From Candidatus Kaiserbacteria bacterium (GTDB lineage Bacteria > Patescibacteriota > Minisyncoccia > Phycocordibacterales > UBA2100): a stretch of DNA of 44,680 nt. A program made the translations under genes and the position numbers. Shown in pieces: positions 1,014-42,708 of this stretch (position 1 is its first letter; each line of letters starts with the position of its first letter). Under the pieces are notes generated by a model, which had not been told where the DNA came from, did no database searches, and saw only the letters and a program-made list of their open reading frames with translations. The stretch covers positions 1 to 44,680 of the forward strand of contig JAHFMV010000008.1 of NCBI GenBank assembly GCA_023267655.1, given 5' to 3'.

Positions 1014-2714
1014 ATGGTCGATACCGTCCAGCAGATCAAAGATAGACTCAACATCACGGATGTCGTTTCGCAGTATGTGAAATTAGATCGTGCTGGGCAG
1101 AATATGCGAGCGCGGTGTCCTTTTCATGCGGAGCGCACGCCTTCGTTTATCGTGTCGCCCGATCGTGGTACCTACCACTGTTTCGGCTGTGGCGTTGGTG
1201 GCGACATGTTTTCTTTCATTGAAGCGATTGAGGGCGTTGATTTCAAGGGGGCACTAAAAATTCTTGCGGAGAAAGCGGGCGTCGAATTGGTGTATTCGCG
1301 TGGTGAGAAAAAAGATGACAAAGATCGGCTGTTTGAAGCGATGGAAGCGGCGACGATTTTCTTCCAGAGCAAACTCTCGAACGAAGCGAAGAAGTACTTG
1401 AAGGACCGCGGAATCGAAGATGGCACGGTCGCCGCATTTCGCCTTGGGTATGCAGGGGACGCGTGGAGTGAGATGTCGGATTTTTTAGTGCGCAAGAAAT
1501 TTTCGGAGAAGGAAGTCATTGATGCCGGGCTCGCGAAAAAAGGCGAGAAAGGCGGCCTCACCGACAAATTCCGCAATCGCATTATGTTTCCGATTGCGGA
1601 CACCGCGGGGCGTATCGTGGCGTTTTCGGGGCGTACGTTTGGCGAAAAAGCGCATCCGGACGCGCCGAAGTACCTGAATTCGCCAGAAACCGCGCTCTAT
1701 CACAAATCACGCATTTTGTACGGATTCGATCGCGCCAAACAGTCGATCAGGAAGCATAATTTTGCGGTTCTCGTGGAAGGACAGGTCGATCTTGTCATGA
1801 GTCATCAGGCCGGATGGGGAAATACAATCGCCGTTTCAGGCACTGCATTTACGGCCGAACACGCTGCGCTTATAAAACGCATGAGCGAAAATCTGGTGAT
1901 CGCGCTCGATCCGGATGAGGCGGGATTCAAGGCGGCATCTCGCGCGGCGCGTGCGGCACTGCAACAAGGTATGCAGGTGAAAGTCGCACAACTACCGAAA
2001 GATCTCGATCCGGCAGATTTGATCGTAAAAGAAGGCTCTGAAGCGTGGCGTACGTGCATTCGTGGTGCCAAAGATATTATTACGTTCCTTCTCGACGTGC
2101 TTGAAGGTCATGCAAAAGATGCGGCGCAGCTCCGTCGATCGATCGAGTCGATCGTCCTGCCATTCTTGATCGATGTACAGAGCCCGATCGCGCGCGAGCA
2201 ATGCGAAAAGGAAATTGCGAAGCGTCTCGGTGTGTCGGAGAGCGCAATACGCGCGGCACAGGCTAAGTTACCTAAAATTCCACGACCCGCCGACCCCATT
2301 AGAGAGCCTACGGCCTCTAACGGGGCAAGTGCACCGAATCGCATCAAACAAGCGTACGGACTGTTACTCTGGCAAGAGTCATTAAAGAAGCCTGATATCG
2401 ACACGGACGAATTCGCAAAAGATTTGGAACAGGCTATTGGGAAAGAGTCGATGAATGAGCTGCGAAAGATGCCGCTCGATGACAAGGAAACGTTGCGGTT
2501 CTTTTCAGAACAGTTGCATGCGAAAAACGGCTCGCTCAAGCGCTCCACAGCAGCGCTGGTGGCCGTCCTTAAGCGAGAACAGCTGCAAGCGGCCTTAAAT
2601 GCTGTTACAGAAGCTATCCGCGAAGCAGAGGACAAGGGCGATGAAAAGGCCGTTGACAGGCTTTCGGAGGAGGCACGTCTGCTTACAGGGCGGATTGCAA
2701 AATTGGCCGATTAA
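1014..2714 (+). CDS. dnaG: DNA primase
   Basis: DnaG synthesises RNA primers at the replication fork. From the ATG at 1014 the protein has 566 residues, near the family length. The CHC2 zinc finger is visible (C35, H38, C56, C59). The catalytic core follows, with TOPRIM motifs VEGQVD and ALDPDEAG. The C-terminal helicase-binding region is divergent. The ORF stays open upstream to 822, but TACCAT (1002-1007) ends six bases before the ATG, right after a terminator, which suggests a leaderless start at 1014. A 35-bp palindrome (2292-2326) sits in frame in the linker before the C-terminal domain and encodes [12 protein letters not shown], which looks like an insertion. The gene is followed by a hairpin and then rpoD, a pairing common in bacteria. 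Confidence 0.96.
2292..2326 (+). repeat. Intragenic palindromic element, copy 1 (in dnaG)
   Basis: The 35-bp unit starts GACCCCATTAGAGAGCC and ends GGCCTCTAACGGGGC, forming a hairpin with a 3-nt tip. It is read in frame as [12 protein letters not shown]. Related copies lie at 8375-8412 (inside the DUF1697 gene) and 40263-40297 (inside the CAP gene). Confidence 0.85.
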
Positions 2715-6411: not shown

Positions 6412-8148
6412 ATGGTCCGGCAAGGAAACGGCAACGGGGAGAAAATAAAGACACCGCTTGAATTGGAAAAAGAGGAACTGCGGCGCTTGATCCGCGATTT
6501 TCATCCGGATAAATTCATGCAAGCCTCCCCCGAGGACAGGAAACGCGTGGAAAACATGATCAAGGTGCTGAATGCCTTAAGCGAAATCCACGAGCACAAA
6601 AAACTCATTTCGGAGAACGGATGGCCGAAAGGGACACCGCCGCCAAAAGAGATTCCGTTGGTAGCGGTCGCTCCCGATGGGGCGTTGATCCGCATCAATT
6701 CAACACTCAACGGCGATGCGTTTTCTCCGGCGGCATATTTTGAGAAAGTGAAGGAATTTCATAAAGACCCGGCTGCATTCCTTGCGGCCGTCCGCGAGAG
6801 AAACCAAGCGCAAACCACGCAAACTCGCTCTAGACGAACTTCGCGTACCGACGATTGGTTAAATGATATTATGCGCAATTCGCGTGAATATCACGAACGA
6901 CACGAGGCCGGCGAGCGTACGCGGCAATCGGCCGCGCGAGCTGCCGAACAGCAACGAGCGCATGAAGAAGAGCAACGTCGGCGCAGATATCGAGAGGATT
7001 TTGAACGGGCGGAAGCTGCTCGAAGAGCCGCCGCGGAAGAAGAGCGGGCGCGTCGCGAACAAGCGCAAAAAGAGGCGGCAGAAAGGGCCGCTGAAGCTCG
7101 CAAGCGCGAGGAAGAGGAGTTCAAACGTACCGTTGCGGAGCATGAACAACTCATCAAATCGCTCGGCGATCAATTTGGTCTGCGCACGACAAAATTCGAT
7201 CCCAAATATTTCCCAAACGACACCGTCGCTTCGCAAAACGAATATTTAAAGCATGCCACTACTATCTTGCGACAGATTGGACCCGGCGTATCGTATGTGC
7301 GCGGGTTTTCGCTTCTCATACCGATGAACGAGACACGGGTCCACGGAAATCTAAAACGTATTGAAATAAATCCCCGGGAAGATCAAAAAATAACGATTGA
7401 GAAAATTCTTCGAGGCATCCAAGAAATTCAACATACGAGAGAAGCTGAAGAAAAACACAAAAACGCGGTCAATTCGCTCAAAGAACTCAAGCCGTTGCAG
7501 GTTATCGAGTCGCAATTCGCGAAGCGTACTCCGGAACAGATCGCCGGTTTCAAAGATCGTGTGCAATCTGCTATTGATCAAGCCGAACACGGGTGGATAT
7601 TGAAATCCGCTTTAGTACACCATGCAGCGATACACCTTTCAGTCGTAGATGATATGAATGTGCGCTATCGGCTCTCGGAGGCCGATGCTTCTAAAACAAG
7701 CGGCGTTGTCCTTGAGATAGGCATTGCAGCGAGCCAACCTGCGCTCGTCGGCCTTATGAATACCGTCGGAGCGGAAATCGAAAAACGATATCCGGCTGCG
7801 ACACTTGCACCGCACAAAGTACCGATCCTCGGAGAGCAGATGGAAGATCGTCTTGGAATACGATTTTCAGGGCTGGATAGCAACTCCAAGATTCTCACGC
7901 CGGAACGCAAGTTACAGTTTTTGGAACGTTTTCGATCGGCATACGATAAAATTGATACGAAAGATCGCGTCTGGCTCAGCAATATGACGGTCAATCCGCC
8001 GAACGAGGGGGCGCAGCTCCTAGGAAGAAATGTGGGGTCGCGACGCGCGTGGGTAGCCCGGAACGAATTTCATGCGCCGTTTGATGTAAGTGAAGAAAGC
8101 ATCCTCGATGCACTCCAAGCCGAAATCCGGAAAAAGAAAGATGCTTAA
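6412..8148 (+). CDS. J-domain-like protein with long coiled coil
   Basis: A 578-residue protein. Residues about 10-65 look like a J domain: EELRRLIRDFHPDKF carries the HPD tripeptide needed to stimulate DnaK. A long, highly charged Glu/Arg/Ala coiled coil follows at about 145-245 (EEQRRRRYREDFERAEAARR), then about 300 residues of unrecognised mixed structure. It lacks the Gly/Phe and zinc-finger regions of DnaJ, so it is not the general co-chaperone and may recruit DnaK to a specific client. No DnaK gene lies nearby. GGAG precedes the ATG closely. It converges on the DUF1697 gene, and the two 3' ends overlap by 4 nt. Confidence 0.65.
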   Translation: MVRQGNGNGEKIKTPLELEKEELRRLIRDFHPDKFMQASPEDRKRVENMIKVLNALSEIHEHKKLISENGWPKGTPPPKEIPLVAVAPDGALIRINSTLNGDAFSPAAYFEKVKEFHKDPAAFLAAVRERNQAQTTQTRSRRTSRTDDWLNDIMRNSREYHERHEAGERTRQSAARAAEQQRAHEEEQRRRRYREDFERAEAARRAAAEEERARREQAQKEAAERAAEARKREEEEFKRTVAEHEQLIKSLGDQFGLRTTKFDPKYFPNDTVASQNEYLKHATTILRQIGPGVSYVRGFSLLIPMNETRVHGNLKRIEINPREDQKITIEKILRGIQEIQHTREAEEKHKNAVNSLKELKPLQVIESQFAKRTPEQIAGFKDRVQSAIDQAEHGWILKSALVHHAAIHLSVVDDMNVRYRLSEADASKTSGVVLEIGIAASQPALVGLMNTVGAEIEKRYPAATLAPHKVPILGEQMEDRLGIRFSGLDSNSKILTPERKLQFLERFRSAYDKIDTKDRVWLSNMTVNPPNEGAQLLGRNVGSRRAWVARNEFHAPFDVSEESILDALQAEIRKKKDA

Positions 8149-8708
8149 GCTTTGAGGATTTTTTGGACGGTGTTCCAGTTGCGGGTTGTGACGAGTTTGC
8201 CGTAGTGCTTTTCGAGCGCAGCCATGAGATCGATAGTGCTTCGATCGGGGGTGAGAATGAGGACGCTGCATATCGCAGTATCGGACTTCTTTGTGAGATA
8301 GAACACTTTGGACGGTGCGAGTTTGAGATGCGATTTCGGCTTTTCGTACAAGAAGGTGACATAGAGGCGCGCCTGCCCCGTTAGAGGTCGCTTGCGACTC
8401 TCTAATGGGGTCTCAGGCGTCACTTTGATACCTTTGAACGGCTGGGTTGCATCGAGTTTTTTCAAGTCATCTATTGAGAGCACAATGACCGCGATATCGC
8501 GCATATATTTTTTCTTGAGGACGGCCTCGATTTTTGTCGCGATCTTTTTTGCATCGCCCCTTGGCGCATCAAAGACGACATTGCCGCTCGCGAGCAGTGT
8601 TTTTACCTCTTTGAATCCTGTCGCTTCCATCAGCCTCTTCAAATCCGTCATTTTAACGAGCGCATTTCCACCAACGTTAATACCGCGCAAAAAGGCTGCA
8701 TATTTCAT
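8145..8708 (-). CDS. DUF1697 family protein
   Basis: A 187-residue protein with the DUF1697 start MKYAAFLRGINVGG, then LKRLMEATGFKEVKTLLASG and NVVF, and a C-terminal TTRNWNTVQKI motif. The family is widespread, small and of unknown function. The middle contains PLESRKRPLTG, encoded by a 38-bp palindromic element (8375-8412) of the kind also found in dnaG and the CAP gene, here read in another frame. TATTAT (complement of 8716-8721) ends 7 nt before the ATG, implying leaderless expression. Confidence 0.9.
   Translation of the reverse strand: MKYAAFLRGINVGGNALVKMTDLKRLMEATGFKEVKTLLASGNVVFDAPRGDAKKIATKIEAVLKKKYMRDIAVIVLSIDDLKKLDATQPFKGIKVTPETPLESRKRPLTGQARLYVTFLYEKPKSHLKLAPSKVFYLTKKSDTAICSVLILTPDRSTIDLMAALEKHYGKLVTTRNWNTVQKILKA
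8375..8412 (-). repeat. Intragenic palindromic element, copy 2 (in DUF1697 gene)
   Basis: Read on the minus strand, it begins GACCCCATTAGAGAG and ends CCTCTAACGGGGC, as in the other two copies, but the tip is GTCGC-AA-GCGAC instead of GCC-TRC-GGC. It is in frame with the host gene but in a different reading frame from copies 1 and 3, giving PLESRKRPLTG. Confidence 0.85.
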
Positions 8709-23381: not shown

Positions 23382-23470
23382 GGAGGTATTGTACAGTGTT
23401 TGGCAAAAATGCAAATACACGCTGATTGCGCGATAGCCTGAAGCTCGTAAGGCACAAAATACCAGAGCTT

Positions 23471-23610
23471 GCGCCGCTACGGGGCGTGCCTCCCACCCGA
23501 ACGCGAACTGATCGGATTTTATAACGTCACATCTACTACGGTATGACATCACGCTTTAGTATTTGCTGCGCGATGTTCTCTGGGAAGCACGCCCCCTATC
23601 GCCGTCTCGC
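23471..23610 (+). repeat. Hairpin repeat family alpha, copy A
   Basis: Left arm CTACGGGGCGTGCCTCCCA and right arm TGGGAAGCACGCCCCCTA are complementary with few mismatches. They enclose an about 85-nt core starting CCCGAACGCGAACTGATC and ending TTGCTGCGCGATGTTCTC, shared with copies at 31.9, 32.1, 36.7 and 41.8 kb. Confidence 0.85.
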
Positions 23611-23650
23611 TCATACGTGCCCCTACGAGCTTCTGACTATCGCTCCTACC

Positions 23651-23989: not shown

Positions 23990-24031
23990 GCGGCGGATGG
24001 TAGCACGAAGGAACACGGTTTTGAAGCGAGA

Positions 24032-24193
24032 CAGCAGCTTTCGTTTTAAAAATCAGAAACGACGGCGGGAAGGTGTTTGAAGGGGTCTCTCGCAGGCTGA
24101 CGAGCCGAGAGTGAGCGCTGCGCGAGCACGCGCAGACAGCGACCCCTGAGAACACTTCCCGGCGGCGTCGGTTTTTAAAACGATTACTGCTGC
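24032..24193 (+). repeat. Hairpin repeat family beta, copy 1
   Basis: This about 160-nt imperfect palindrome has outer arms CAGCAGCTTTCGTTTTAAAA / TTTTAAAACGATTACTGCTG, inner arms GGCGGGAAGGTGTTTGAAGG and CTGAGAACACTTCCCGGCGG next to GGTC/GACC, and apex CTGCGCG-AGCA-CGCGCAG (24118-24135). The second copy is at 42499-42660. Confidence 0.85.
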
Positions 24194-24204
24194 GAGCGCT
24201 ACTT

Positions 24205-26863: not shown

Positions 26864-26890
26864 TGCAGTAGTATACACACAGTAGCAAAA

Positions 26891-26913
26891 TCCCGACAGT
26901 CAGACTGTCGGGA
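26891..26913. repeat. 23-bp palindrome upstream of the RAYT gene
   Basis: TCCCGACAGTC and GACTGTCGGGA flank a single A (26891-26913). It shares its arms with the 50-bp palindrome at 27615-27664 and lies at the -35 position of the transposase promoter. Confidence 0.9.
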
Positions 26914-26933
26914 CTTTGGCGTATTATTCTAGT

Positions 26934-27617
26934 ATGCGTGTCGAGCCTTATGCGGTGGGGTCATATCTCCATATTGTCAAACGTGGCGCAAGGGGGATGG
27001 CGATAACGAGCGACGTTAGCGATCAATTTCGATTTCTTCGGCTCCTCTATTTTATGAATGATCAATTTTTTAACGAAGATTGGGAATTACAGGTTGAGGG
27101 TAAGCATTTTGGGTACCGTCCCGATACGTGGCCGGAGCGCGAGCCATTGGTAAGCATTCTTTCCTATACTCTTATGCCAAATCATTTTCATCTTCTCATT
27201 AAAGAAATACAGGAAGGAGGAGTGTCTGCATTTATGCAGAAATTGGGGCAAAGTATGACGGTGCATTTCAATTTAAAATATGATCAACGCGGAAGCATCT
27301 TTCAAGGTTCATACCGCAGCCGCACGATTTCAAACGATACGTATTTACAGTATGTTGTTGCGTATATTAGCGTTAAGAACACGTTTGAGTTGTATCCCCA
27401 TGGCGGCCTAAAGGGTGCAATGGATGATTTTGAAAAAGCATGGAAATGGGCAATGACATATCCGTTTTCAAGTCTCGGCACATATGCACAGAACTCAATA
27501 GATCCGTTAGTCGATCTAGCGGCGTGTAACGAAGTCATTCAGGCACCGAAAGAGTTTAAAGTATTCGCAAAAGACGTGATCCTTGGAGGTAAATGGACGG
27601 AGGGAGAATTTGAGTAA
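26934..27617 (+). CDS. REP-associated tyrosine transposase (Y1/HUH, IS200-like)
   Basis: A 227-residue TnpA_REP-type protein. The HUH metal-binding motif is in LMPNHFHLLI and the likely catalytic Tyr is in DTYLQYVVAYISVKN; GSIFQGSYRSR is also typical. Such enzymes cut and join single-stranded DNA at hairpins and are linked to REP/BIME spread. TATTAT (26922-26927) ends 6 nt before the ATG, so it is leaderless, like the housekeeping genes. The stop codon is part of a perfect 50-bp palindrome, and a related 23-bp palindrome lies upstream, so gene and palindromes form a unit at 26891-27664. Confidence 0.9.
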   Translation: MRVEPYAVGSYLHIVKRGARGMAITSDVSDQFRFLRLLYFMNDQFFNEDWELQVEGKHFGYRPDTWPEREPLVSILSYTLMPNHFHLLIKEIQEGGVSAFMQKLGQSMTVHFNLKYDQRGSIFQGSYRSRTISNDTYLQYVVAYISVKNTFELYPHGGLKGAMDDFEKAWKWAMTYPFSSLGTYAQNSIDPLVDLAACNEVIQAPKEFKVFAKDVILGGKWTEGEFE

Positions 27618-27664
27618 TCCCGACAGTCTGACTATCGGTACCGATAGTCAGACTGTCGGGATTA
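27615..27664. repeat. Perfect 50-bp palindrome at the RAYT stop codon
   Basis: The left half is TAATCCCGACAGTCTGACTA plus TCGGT; the right half is its exact reverse complement, with no loop. The first three bases are the transposase stop codon. The arms contain the same CCCGACAGTC as the upstream palindrome. Confidence 0.92.
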
Positions 27665-31900: not shown

Positions 31901-32057
31901 TGAGAGGCGTTTCCGGCACCCCGTGCCGTGCGCCTCGACCCGAACGCGAACTGATCAACGGATCGAATATAACATCTACTACTGTATGACATCACGCTTT
32001 GGTATCTGCTGCGCGATGTTCTCTCGAGGAGCACGGCACGGGGGGGCCGACGCCTCA
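31901..32057 (+). repeat. Hairpin repeat family alpha, copy B
   Basis: The arms are GCACCCCGTGCCGTGCGCCT on the left and AGGAGCACGGCACGGGG on the right, flanked by outer TGAGAGGCG/CGCCTCA. The arm sequence is unlike copies A, C or E, yet still self-complementary. The core matches the family (CCCGAACGCGAACTGATC to TGCTGCGCGATGTTCTCT). Confidence 0.85.
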
Positions 32058-32120
32058 CAGTTTTGTTGCGTGGCTCCTTTCACCCACCCCCGACAATATC
32101 TCTGTAACCAACGAACGTAG

Positions 32121-32262
32121 CGAGACGACGATAGGCGGTATTCCTCCCAGAGAACATCGCGCAGCAAATACAAATACGTGTAGACATACAGTAGTAGATG
32201 TGACTTCATGAAATCCGATTAGTTCGTGTTCGGGTGGGAGGAATACCGCCTAGCGTCGCGAG
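32121..32262 (-). repeat. Hairpin repeat family alpha, copy C (inverted)
   Basis: This copy is in reverse orientation, 63 nt after copy B. Arms TAGGCGGTATTCCTCCCA and TGGGAGGAATACCGCCTA are perfectly complementary. The core is the most divergent of the five. Confidence 0.85.
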
Positions 32263-32323
32263 AGGGCACACTTGACGAAGTGGTTTTGTCATATCCCTCT
32301 CGTTATCCACACCACAAAATGCA

Positions 32324-36723: not shown

Positions 36724-36740
36724 GCTAAAAAGGCGGCGAG

Positions 36741-36872
36741 GAGGCGGTGTGCCGCATGCCTCTCTCGAACGCGAACTAATCAACGGATCGCTTATCACAT
36801 CTACTGCTGTATGACATCACGTATTAAAATTTGCTGCGCGATGTTCTCACGAGGCATACGGCACACCGCCTC
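36741..36872 (+). repeat. Hairpin repeat family alpha, copy D
   Basis: The left arm GGCGGTGTGCCGCATGCCTC and right arm GAGGCATACGGCACACCGCC are complementary with a single G-T type mismatch. The arms differ entirely from those of copies C and E. The core has the family ends CGAACGCGAACTAATC and TTGCTGCGCGATGTTCTC. Confidence 0.88.
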
Positions 36873-36887
36873 CCTTAGTGGGAAAAT

Positions 36888-39578: not shown

Positions 39579-40574
39579 ATGGTGAAGCGCCGCGGTAAGA
39601 AGCGGAAAGGTATTGATGTTGGGAAATTTGGCTGGACGCCGCGGTATTTGACGACCGCGACGTACTTTTCTATCGGGGCATTGGTGGTATGTCTTTTTAT
39701 GGGCGCGGGGGTTGTCGATCGGTACATCCAATCGAGCGGATCACCCTTTGTCGCAGCGGTGATTTCGGCACTATTGGTGGATTATGCCAATCAGGATCGC
39801 GTGGCTGATCAATTGAATGGTTTGAAAATAAATCCGAAGCTCGCAGCCGCGGCGCAGGCGAAGGCCGACGATATGGCGGCAAAAGGCTATTTCTCGCACA
39901 CGACGCCCGAAGGCTACGATTCGTGGCATTGGTTCAGGCTCGTTGGGTACGACTATTCGTATGCGGGGGAAAATCTTGCCGTGGATTTTTCTGAATCGAG
40001 TGACGTCGAAAAAGCGTGGATGGCGTCGCCAACGCATCGCGAGAACATTTTGAATGCGCATTATACGGAGATCGGCATCGCGACGGCGAAGGGGACGTAC
40101 AAGGGCCACGAGGCGATTTTTGCGGTGCAAATGTTTGGAAGGCCGAGTGCGGTCGAGGTCGCGCGCGCTGTAGGGGCGCCGCCGGCTGCTCCGCAGCCGG
40201 CGGCTATCGCTGCGTCAACAGTGCAGCCTTCGCAAGTTCTCGGCGAGGCATCAAAATCCGGTGACCCCATTAGAGAGCCTGCGGCCTCTAACGGGGCGAG
40301 CGCCGCGATCATGACTCCGGCACAAGTTCCGTGGTGGGCATGGCTCGCCGTCCAGCCGAAACAAACGCTACGCTACGCGTACCTCATCATCGGTCTCCTT
40401 ATTCTTTTCGCACTCTTTGGCGATATGGAATGGGAAATCAAACAGCATCACATCAGGCACGCCATGAAAGCCGGCGTCGCGCTTGCAACAATGTCGATGC
40501 TCTTTATCGTTGCTGACTGGGTCTTCTTCGCGCAACCGATTTTGGCCGCGGTAGGTACGTTGATTGGGAATTGA
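39579..40574 (+). CDS. Membrane-anchored CAP/SCP-domain protein
   Basis: A 331-residue protein. A basic N-terminus leads to an anchor helix (YFSIGALVVCLFMGAGVV). The CAP domain is at about 60-185: INPKLAAAAQAKADDMAAKG, YFSHTTPEGYDSWHW, AGENLAVDF and SPTHRENILN-AHYTEIGIA, with the conserved His and Glu residues. A VLGEA motif and a linker follow, then two hydrophobic helices (about 255-325). The linker contains DPIREPAASNGASA, encoded by a 35-bp palindromic element. GATAAT ends 6 nt before the ATG. CPR CAP proteins are probably envelope-associated. Confidence 0.88.
   Translation: MVKRRGKKRKGIDVGKFGWTPRYLTTATYFSIGALVVCLFMGAGVVDRYIQSSGSPFVAAVISALLVDYANQDRVADQLNGLKINPKLAAAAQAKADDMAAKGYFSHTTPEGYDSWHWFRLVGYDYSYAGENLAVDFSESSDVEKAWMASPTHRENILNAHYTEIGIATAKGTYKGHEAIFAVQMFGRPSAVEVARAVGAPPAAPQPAAIAASTVQPSQVLGEASKSGDPIREPAASNGASAAIMTPAQVPWWAWLAVQPKQTLRYAYLIIGLLILFALFGDMEWEIKQHHIRHAMKAGVALATMSMLFIVADWVFFAQPILAAVGTLIGN
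40263..40297 (+). repeat. Intragenic palindromic element, copy 3 (in CAP gene)
   Basis: This copy is identical to copy 1 in dnaG except at the tip (TGC instead of TAC), and is read in the same frame (DPIREPAASNGA). It lies in the linker between the CAP domain and the C-terminal membrane helices. Confidence 0.88.
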
Positions 40575-41703: not shown

Positions 41704-41848
41704 CATAAGGACTATTCTCCACTCAATACGTAAAGCCTCGATGAAGAGGTCAGCAAGTCGGTAATTCCGTGCGGTTTCCATATGTCTATTCGGACGCCGT
41801 ATACGACGCTTTCTTACAGTTTTTCGTTAGTTTTCCAACCGCCCGCTC
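41704..41848. other. Intergenic region without recognised features
   Basis: No gene, terminator or RNA is recognised between the nuclease stop and repeat alpha copy E. A short CCTC/GAGG dyad near 41736 is too small to interpret. Confidence 0.4.
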
Positions 41849-41987
41849 GCGACGCTAGGCGGTATTCCTCCCACCCGAACGCGAACTGATCAACGGATCG
41901 AATATCACATCTACTGCTGTATGTCTCTCCGCATTGCTATTCGCTGCGCGATGTTCTCTGGGAGGAACACCCCCTATCGCCGTCTCG
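41849..41987 (+). repeat. Hairpin repeat family alpha, copy E
   Basis: The left arm CTAGGCGGTATTCCTCCCA and right arm TGGGAGGAACACCCCCTA pair with two mismatches. The core begins CCCGAACGCGAACTGATC and ends TCGCTGCGCGATGTTCTC. The arms resemble those of copy C. Confidence 0.87.
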
Positions 41988-41994
41988 CTACCCT

Positions 41995-42468: not shown

Positions 42469-42498
42469 GTCGGCATCTTACCACTCTACGAGTGAGCC

Positions 42499-42660
42499 AC
42501 CAGCTTTCGGTTTAAAAACCAGAAACGACGACGGGAAGGTGTTTGAAGGGGTCTGCGCAGGAGCGACGGCGACGAGCCCGAGCGCTGCCGTAGCAACGGC
42601 AGATAGCGATCCCTGAGAACACTTCCCGGCGGCGTCGGTTTTTAAAATGATTGCTGGTGC
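42499..42660 (+). repeat. Hairpin repeat family beta, copy 2
   Basis: Outer arms CACCAGCTTTCGGTTTAAAA / TTTTAAAATGATTGCTGGTG differ from copy 1 by paired changes (CAGCAG/CTGCTG to CACCAG/CTGGTG). The apex is CTGCCGT-AGCA-ACGGCAG (42585-42602), against CTGCGCG-AGCA-CGCGCAG in copy 1: the loop is kept and the stem covaries. Confidence 0.87.
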
Positions 42661-42708
42661 GAGCGCTACATTTCCTAATTACACCACAACGCGCTAAGAT
42701 ACGCCGCA

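Follow-up and report, generated by a model that had tools for sequence, protein, structure and literature searches.

A short imperfect palindrome lies in frame inside the primase gene of a Candidatus Kaiserbacteria genome and inside two unrelated genes of the same contig (C1, the window, 44,680 nucleotides in length), which raises the question of whether it is a mobile unit that proteins tolerate, an RNA structure retained for its own sake, or a chance likeness between peptides. We find that it is very probably a non-autonomous mobile palindrome that inserts between an A and a pyrimidine (A^Y) without target duplication and is tolerated in loops, turns and linkers; it is presumably selfish.

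Structure of the element and its copies in the window

The window holds exactly three occurrences of the sequence GACCCCATTAGAGAG, at 2292 and 40263 on the forward strand and at 8398-8412 on the reverse strand, and each of them sits in an imperfect palindrome within a coding frame, as the first-pass annotation of this DNA had observed. Copy 1 (2294..2329, forward strand, 36 nt; palindrome 2294-2325 plus tail CAAG) lies in dnaG (1014..2714, forward strand; Pfam DNAG_N, Zn_ribbon_DnaG and Toprim), where it encodes 11 residues between (D) and (S); the unit had been drawn at 2292-2326, which we correct to 2294-2329, a palindrome with a CRRG tail between a host A and a pyrimidine. Its placement in the linker ahead of the helicase-binding domain was right: the insert comprises residues about 427-439, after the catalytic core and ahead of the C-terminal helical domain, and in the AlphaFold model of DnaG (pLDDT 82) it falls in a coil (418-442) preceding the C-terminal helices, with pLDDT<50 at 425-440. 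Copy 2 (8372..8410, reverse strand, 39 nt; palindrome 8376-8410 plus tail CAGG) encodes TPLESRKRPLTGQ in a DUF1697 protein (8145..8708, reverse strand) whose Pfam match, residues 1-94 of 187, ends at the insert. Copy 3 (40265..40300, forward strand, 36 nt; palindrome 40265-40296 plus tail CGAG) encodes DPIREPAASNGA in a CAP-domain protein (39579..40574, forward strand), where it follows the CAP domain (residues 68-186) and precedes the hydrophobic segments of the C-terminus. A single unit length for all three, as originally proposed, does not hold, since the palindrome of the DUF1697 copy is 35 nt long (a 39-nt insert) and that of the others 32 nt.

The consensus layout is CCCCATTAGAGAG-apex-CCTCTAACGGGG-CRRG, in which the hairpin arms, CCCC-A-TTAGAG and CTCTAA-C-GGGG, contain a conserved A-C mismatch and a bulged A and enclose a short variable apex; as RNA the hairpin has a stability of -15 to -21 kcal/mol. 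The tail is CAGG, CAAG, CGGG or CGAG in 89/99 matches from the genus (CYYG on the opposite strand), and among the same 99 matches neither a GTAG tetranucleotide at one foot nor CGTC (or TGTC/CCTC) at one end defines the element. The host base to the left of the insert is A in 80/91 copies and that to the right a pyrimidine in 79/91, with little else conserved; the insertion point could equally be placed one base rightward (AC^), with identical results. No Rfam family matched anywhere in the window at gathering score.

Stem pairing is maintained by compensatory change. In 37 ungapped copies 96.8% of cells are paired, 51 cells are changed on both sides against 14.9 in shuffles, and the covariation score is 0.316, against 0.093 when shuffled and at most 0.058 with slid partners; relatedness of the copies inflates these counts, and the slid controls retain that relatedness. 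The first stem pair, for example, varies as C-G, G-C and T-A.

The window also contains longer repeats: a MITE-like dispersed repeat of ~100-150 bp (23468-23611, 31941-32039, 32117-32267, 36740-36873 and 41845-41991), with copies 74-94% alike, in both orientations and mostly between genes, and an intergenic pair of ~180 bp (24025-24202 and 42491-42669) that is 86-91% identical.

Empty sites and copies across the genome and the genus

Evidence of insertion comes from relatives in which the site is empty. Clean gaps of 36 or 39 nt are present at six sites, in IF-2, transketolase, TyrRS, TopA, RecJ and DUF1697, and the net gain is exactly the palindrome plus four nucleotides, with no target duplication. 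In IF-2, for instance, the relatives G028 and G036 read VVH-EREGK and VEH-EREGK where the Kaiserbacteria protein reads VVH-PIREASPSNGAG-TREGK, and the gene is longer by exactly 36 nt. Compared with one to six orthologues each, the gain is 36 nt in transketolase (with an extra length difference of 6-9 nt a few codons downstream of the element), TyrRS and TopA, and 39 nt in RecJ. The DUF1697 gene is exactly 39 nt longer than four orthologues; its target is A^CG of a Thr codon, and the flanking bases when joined restore this ACG, which is present in three of the four. Thioredoxin reductase shows a gain that fits 36 nt between diverged flanks, while the total gain in AtpD, 51 nt, exceeds the element alone. 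DnaG orthologues have a different, length-variable linker at the site, so that an exact gap cannot be drawn, and the element motif was found in none of those compared. Loci related through DnaG, at 34-50% identity, came solely from unclassified or Patescibacteria MAGs, one of them labelled Dormiibacterota, and together with the small genome they place the organism in Patescibacteria. Alignment thus bears out the expectation that homologues lack the inserted residues, for DnaG as well as for the six proteins with clean gaps.

The genome (1.09 Mb in 27 contigs, 98.9% complete) was searched with a covariance model and with patterns, and the further copies anticipated from the window were found. 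The exact two-arm pattern has 10 copies, and a reversed control pattern none; the ten lie in ten different genes, all in frame, namely DnaG, DUF1697, CAP, a long hypothetical protein, the N-terminal transketolase subunit, RecJ, TyrRS, a succinyl-CoA-synthetase-like (SucC-like) protein (antisense), IF-2 and TopA, where the names beyond the first three are our interpretation of the translations. The covariance model detects ~26 distinct loci at E<0.01 and one more at 0.02, hence ~27 copies, rather than the hundreds per genome that had been extrapolated from the window, which is unusually rich in copies relative to the genome. Of these loci 18 are intragenic and in frame (hosts also include AtpD and thioredoxin reductase); of the other nine, eight lie between genes and one extends over the end of a gene. 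The claim that the unit always has the orientation of its gene is true of the window but not of the genome, where four copies are antisense (SucC-like, G6PD and two others) and sense copies use two reading frames.

Within the genus, 32/52 genomes have model matches at E<=0.01, as does 1/18 of the other genomes of the family, and with a broader model 20/380 genomes across the phylum, the Kaiserbacteria genome included, match weakly; most of these distant copies retain CCCC-R-TTAGA//TCTAAC-GGGG-YRR, some of them likewise lying in frame. By gene calls from a small dicodon script, of which a few are doubtful (L043, called partly intergenic, is inside a long antisense open reading frame), 47/99 genus matches are intragenic. 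At every site compared in the closest relatives, G028 and G036 (IF-2, transketolase, TopA, RecJ and TrxB), the insert is absent, and G028 has one model match against 25 in the Kaiserbacteria genome under identical filters, which argues that the burst in the latter is recent. The same gene can be entered at different sites in different species, as in RecJ (the Kaiserbacteria genome and G023) and TopA (the Kaiserbacteria genome and G025). In other congeners the IF-2 turn holds other inserts, some with palindromic ends and a CRRG foot, and looks like a permissive hot spot. A divergent hairpin in the same turn of the G022 protein, CACCCCGTAAAACCGCC-TGA-GGGCGGTCACGGGGCAGGT (L162), was missed by the R1 model; the family is therefore wider than that model.

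Intergenic copies recur in leaders. Several lie 7-15 nt upstream of start codons, including that of dnaG in four further species (L145, L147, L068 and L121), in contrast to the Kaiserbacteria dnaG with its copy in the coding linker; others occupy the leaders of typA, fusA and ruvB-like genes. At six loci (L034, L052, L134, L154, L128 and L136) short leader open reading frames carry the hairpin ahead of the true start codon and begin with codons similar to the opening ones of the gene that follows (RNHCP-like, typA); L052 and L034 have the hairpin at different points of the leader.

Reading frame and translation

Length is divisible by three in 38/45 clearly intragenic copies and in 14/52 others (Fisher p=1.4e-8), and three of the seven intragenic exceptions represent a single orthologous site, in CapA. 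Because the rule holds within genes and not between them, the insert is, as far as sequence can tell, translated, as ~12 added residues. With same-site duplicates removed, sense copies use two frames only (27 and 8) and seven copies are antisense; the third sense frame contains TAG and is never used by intragenic copies. The excess of sense over antisense among intragenic copies (35 to 7, p=1.5e-5) has no counterpart in the orientation of intergenic copies toward neighbouring genes, and so appears to reflect selection on the peptide rather than a preference at insertion. In a model of IF-2 (pLDDT 76) the insert is a low-confidence loop between the adjacent strands 52-60 and 77-84. Other inserts fall in short segments, e.g. 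RMD-GK and YEN-VEVY, which we take from general knowledge of folds to be turns. The earlier suggestion of an insert tolerated as a peptide, in the manner of Rickettsia palindromic elements (RPEs), is thereby supported, both by homologues without the residues and by the further copies.

The comparison of copies with one another is harder to interpret. Among eight equal-length copies of the Kaiserbacteria genome, differences per site are 0 in the arms, 0.29 in the apex and 0.21 in the foot, and across the ten recent copies the arms are identical and the apices hypervariable yet mostly still paired. This is puzzling, as a recent burst should have copied the apex too, and we cannot explain it well. 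Four sites are occupied in two species each (transketolase, UvrB, a dehydrogenase-like protein and a linker protein), and within these elements 44/44 codons for the same amino acid are identical, against 33-54% in the flanks; near-identical elements in diverged genes require parallel insertion, homogenisation or local constraint. On the transketolase gene tree the carriers G000 and G023 are not sisters and are separated by non-carriers, for which reason we prefer to see two recent insertions into a single permissive NAY codon, although the likeness at shared sites may come from local constraint or homogenisation. At the CapA site (G000, G019 and G027) the copies are 37 nt long, amino acids change while pairs are kept, and the stems differ among the three species.

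Movement, rival explanations and known palindrome families

The unit, an imperfect palindrome of 32-35 nt with a one-sided CRRG foot on the top strand, is inserted at an A^Y dinucleotide; its insertion, size, target, frame rule, covariation and differing sites among species are all seen in the sequences. On the reading we favour, coding copies survive only if their length is a multiple of three, the frame stays open and the site is at a turn or linker, where the ribosome reads through and adds 11-13 residues, and intergenic copies are exempt from the frame rule. Movement may involve single-stranded DNA, with the hairpin as substrate of an enzyme supplied in trans; such an enzyme would recognise the foot, the arms and the conserved A-C mismatch, much as TnpA/RAYT enzymes recognise REPs. 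This single-strand route is at most an even bet. The mobile-palindrome reading as a whole is weakened by the failure to tie a transposase to the element, by the intragenic position of all 10 recent copies, which is more than blind insertion and survival would readily produce, by the near-identity of elements at shared sites in diverged genes, and by the 37-nt CapA copies with their altered amino acids and retained pairs. That a Y1/RAYT transposase of the genome moves the element, which would then be an ordinary REP family, is possible but doubtful: such proteins are common (in 45/52 congeners, with six in the Kaiserbacteria genome, one of them in the window) and a four-base foot adjoining an imperfect hairpin is REP-like, but the element is absent from all 55 Y1/RAYT loci tested (30 + 5 + 20; 0 model matches), many of which carry unrelated palindromes of their own, and its foot is CRRG/CYYG and not GTAG. 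An undescribed, non-RAYT enzyme that recognises only the arms, with the apex and two foot purines rewritten at each move, would explain why the arms are identical and the apices different but mostly paired; we consider it quite unlikely. If true, the element would be a small source of peptide diversity, supplying essential proteins with varied inserts in loops that tolerate them. The window RAYT/Y1 gene (26916-27617, PF01797) lies within 26886-27664 and is flanked by palindromes of its own, CCCGACAGTC-n-GACTGTCGGG, at 26886-26918 and 27615-27664, which are unrelated to the coding element.

A further reading regards the hairpin as a functional RNA kept by selection, acting in translation regulation or in mRNA stability or processing, for which the coding position would be secondary: the stem covaries strongly, synonymous identity is complete at the four shared sites, compensatory changes in CapA preserve the stems while altering residues, and intergenic copies return to 5' leaders, those of dnaG in four species among them. 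Most orthologues, the closest relatives included, nevertheless lack the element, its sites, strands and frames vary between genes and species, and the non-sister transketolase carriers, whose nearest relatives are empty, favour parallel recent insertion, so that we judge this account unlikely. A hairpin this stable as RNA might instead be passed over during translation, by byp-like bypassing, or excised by splicing, leaving no peptide; since skipping would be indifferent to length and stops, the frame rule and the avoidance of the TAG-containing frame make this very improbable. Chance likeness of a low-complexity or conserved peptide, which has nothing in its favour beyond the shortness of the element, is practically negligible given that the control pattern had no match in the genome and that the same DNA encodes unrelated peptides in several frames and on both strands. 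Other candidates were rejected: ~27 copies per Mb are far too few for a DNA-uptake sequence; an attC-like reading of GTTAGA/TCTAAC has, on inspection, the box order reversed; and three IMG/VR contigs matching the core pattern represent one phage locus without the CRRG foot, judged coincidental, with no match to the element in annotated phages.

Returning to the mobile palindrome, MITEs usually show target duplications, and the empty sites here show none, contrary to the MITE pattern of terminal inverted repeats with target-site duplication. The element resembles IS200/IS605 derivatives as a non-autonomous hairpin with a dinucleotide-scale target and no target duplication; it differs from these and from MITEs in that no autonomous parent was found. 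GTAG/CGTC REPs are palindromes of 20-40 nt with a tetranucleotide at one foot (Di Nocera 2013, PMC3733652), sometimes intragenic, including in uvrB, uvrD, dnaE and tRNA synthetases, although most are intergenic (PMC3733652). Our element is likewise a short palindrome with a four-base foot, intragenic in similar kinds of genes (UvrB, tRNA synthetase), but its foot is CRRG, it was not found beside RAYT genes and it is mostly intragenic (18/27). CGTC REPs sit in genes, many of which serve DNA synthesis and repair (PMC3733652), and have no known dedicated transposase (PMC3733652, PMC2229807); the present element too sits in genes with no dedicated transposase found. RPEs are palindromes found in frame in unrelated conserved proteins and between genes, with the peptide tolerated, and RPE-4 and RPE-6 correspond to the CGTC-4 and CGTC-1 REPs (PMC3733652, PMC2229807); intragenic REPs are reported from several bacteria besides Rickettsia (PMC3733652). 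The element shares the in-frame position in unrelated conserved proteins and the intergenic copies, but is 36 nt long where 105-146 nt is reported for RPEs, has another sequence and no CGTC tag, belongs to another phylum, and has a target dinucleotide and exact empty sites that are defined here. By its tags the element stands outside GTAG/CGTC; it constitutes a new family of protein-coding palindromes, one that works like RPEs and intragenic REPs. Our literature search found no report of palindromic elements in Patescibacteria, CPR or Parcubacteria, to which the family extends such palindromes.

These genomes thus offer a natural experiment of many independent 12-residue insertions in essential enzymes, for which close relatives supply the empty sites, and make testable how new peptide segments enter proteins, which loops accept them, and how a parasite with no known transposase spreads in a 1 Mb genome. 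For annotation, the inserted residues should not be taken for conserved parts of the proteins. The genus has a second in-frame palindrome, ACCCTTCGAC-nnn-GCTCAGGG-CRRG (L271-L298, 14/52 congeners), which has the same A...CRRG-Y ends and in-frame copies but another stem, and is absent from the Kaiserbacteria genome by exact pattern; it encodes PSTSSGQA or PSTSLRAS in GatB, enolase, transketolase, IF-2-like and other proteins.
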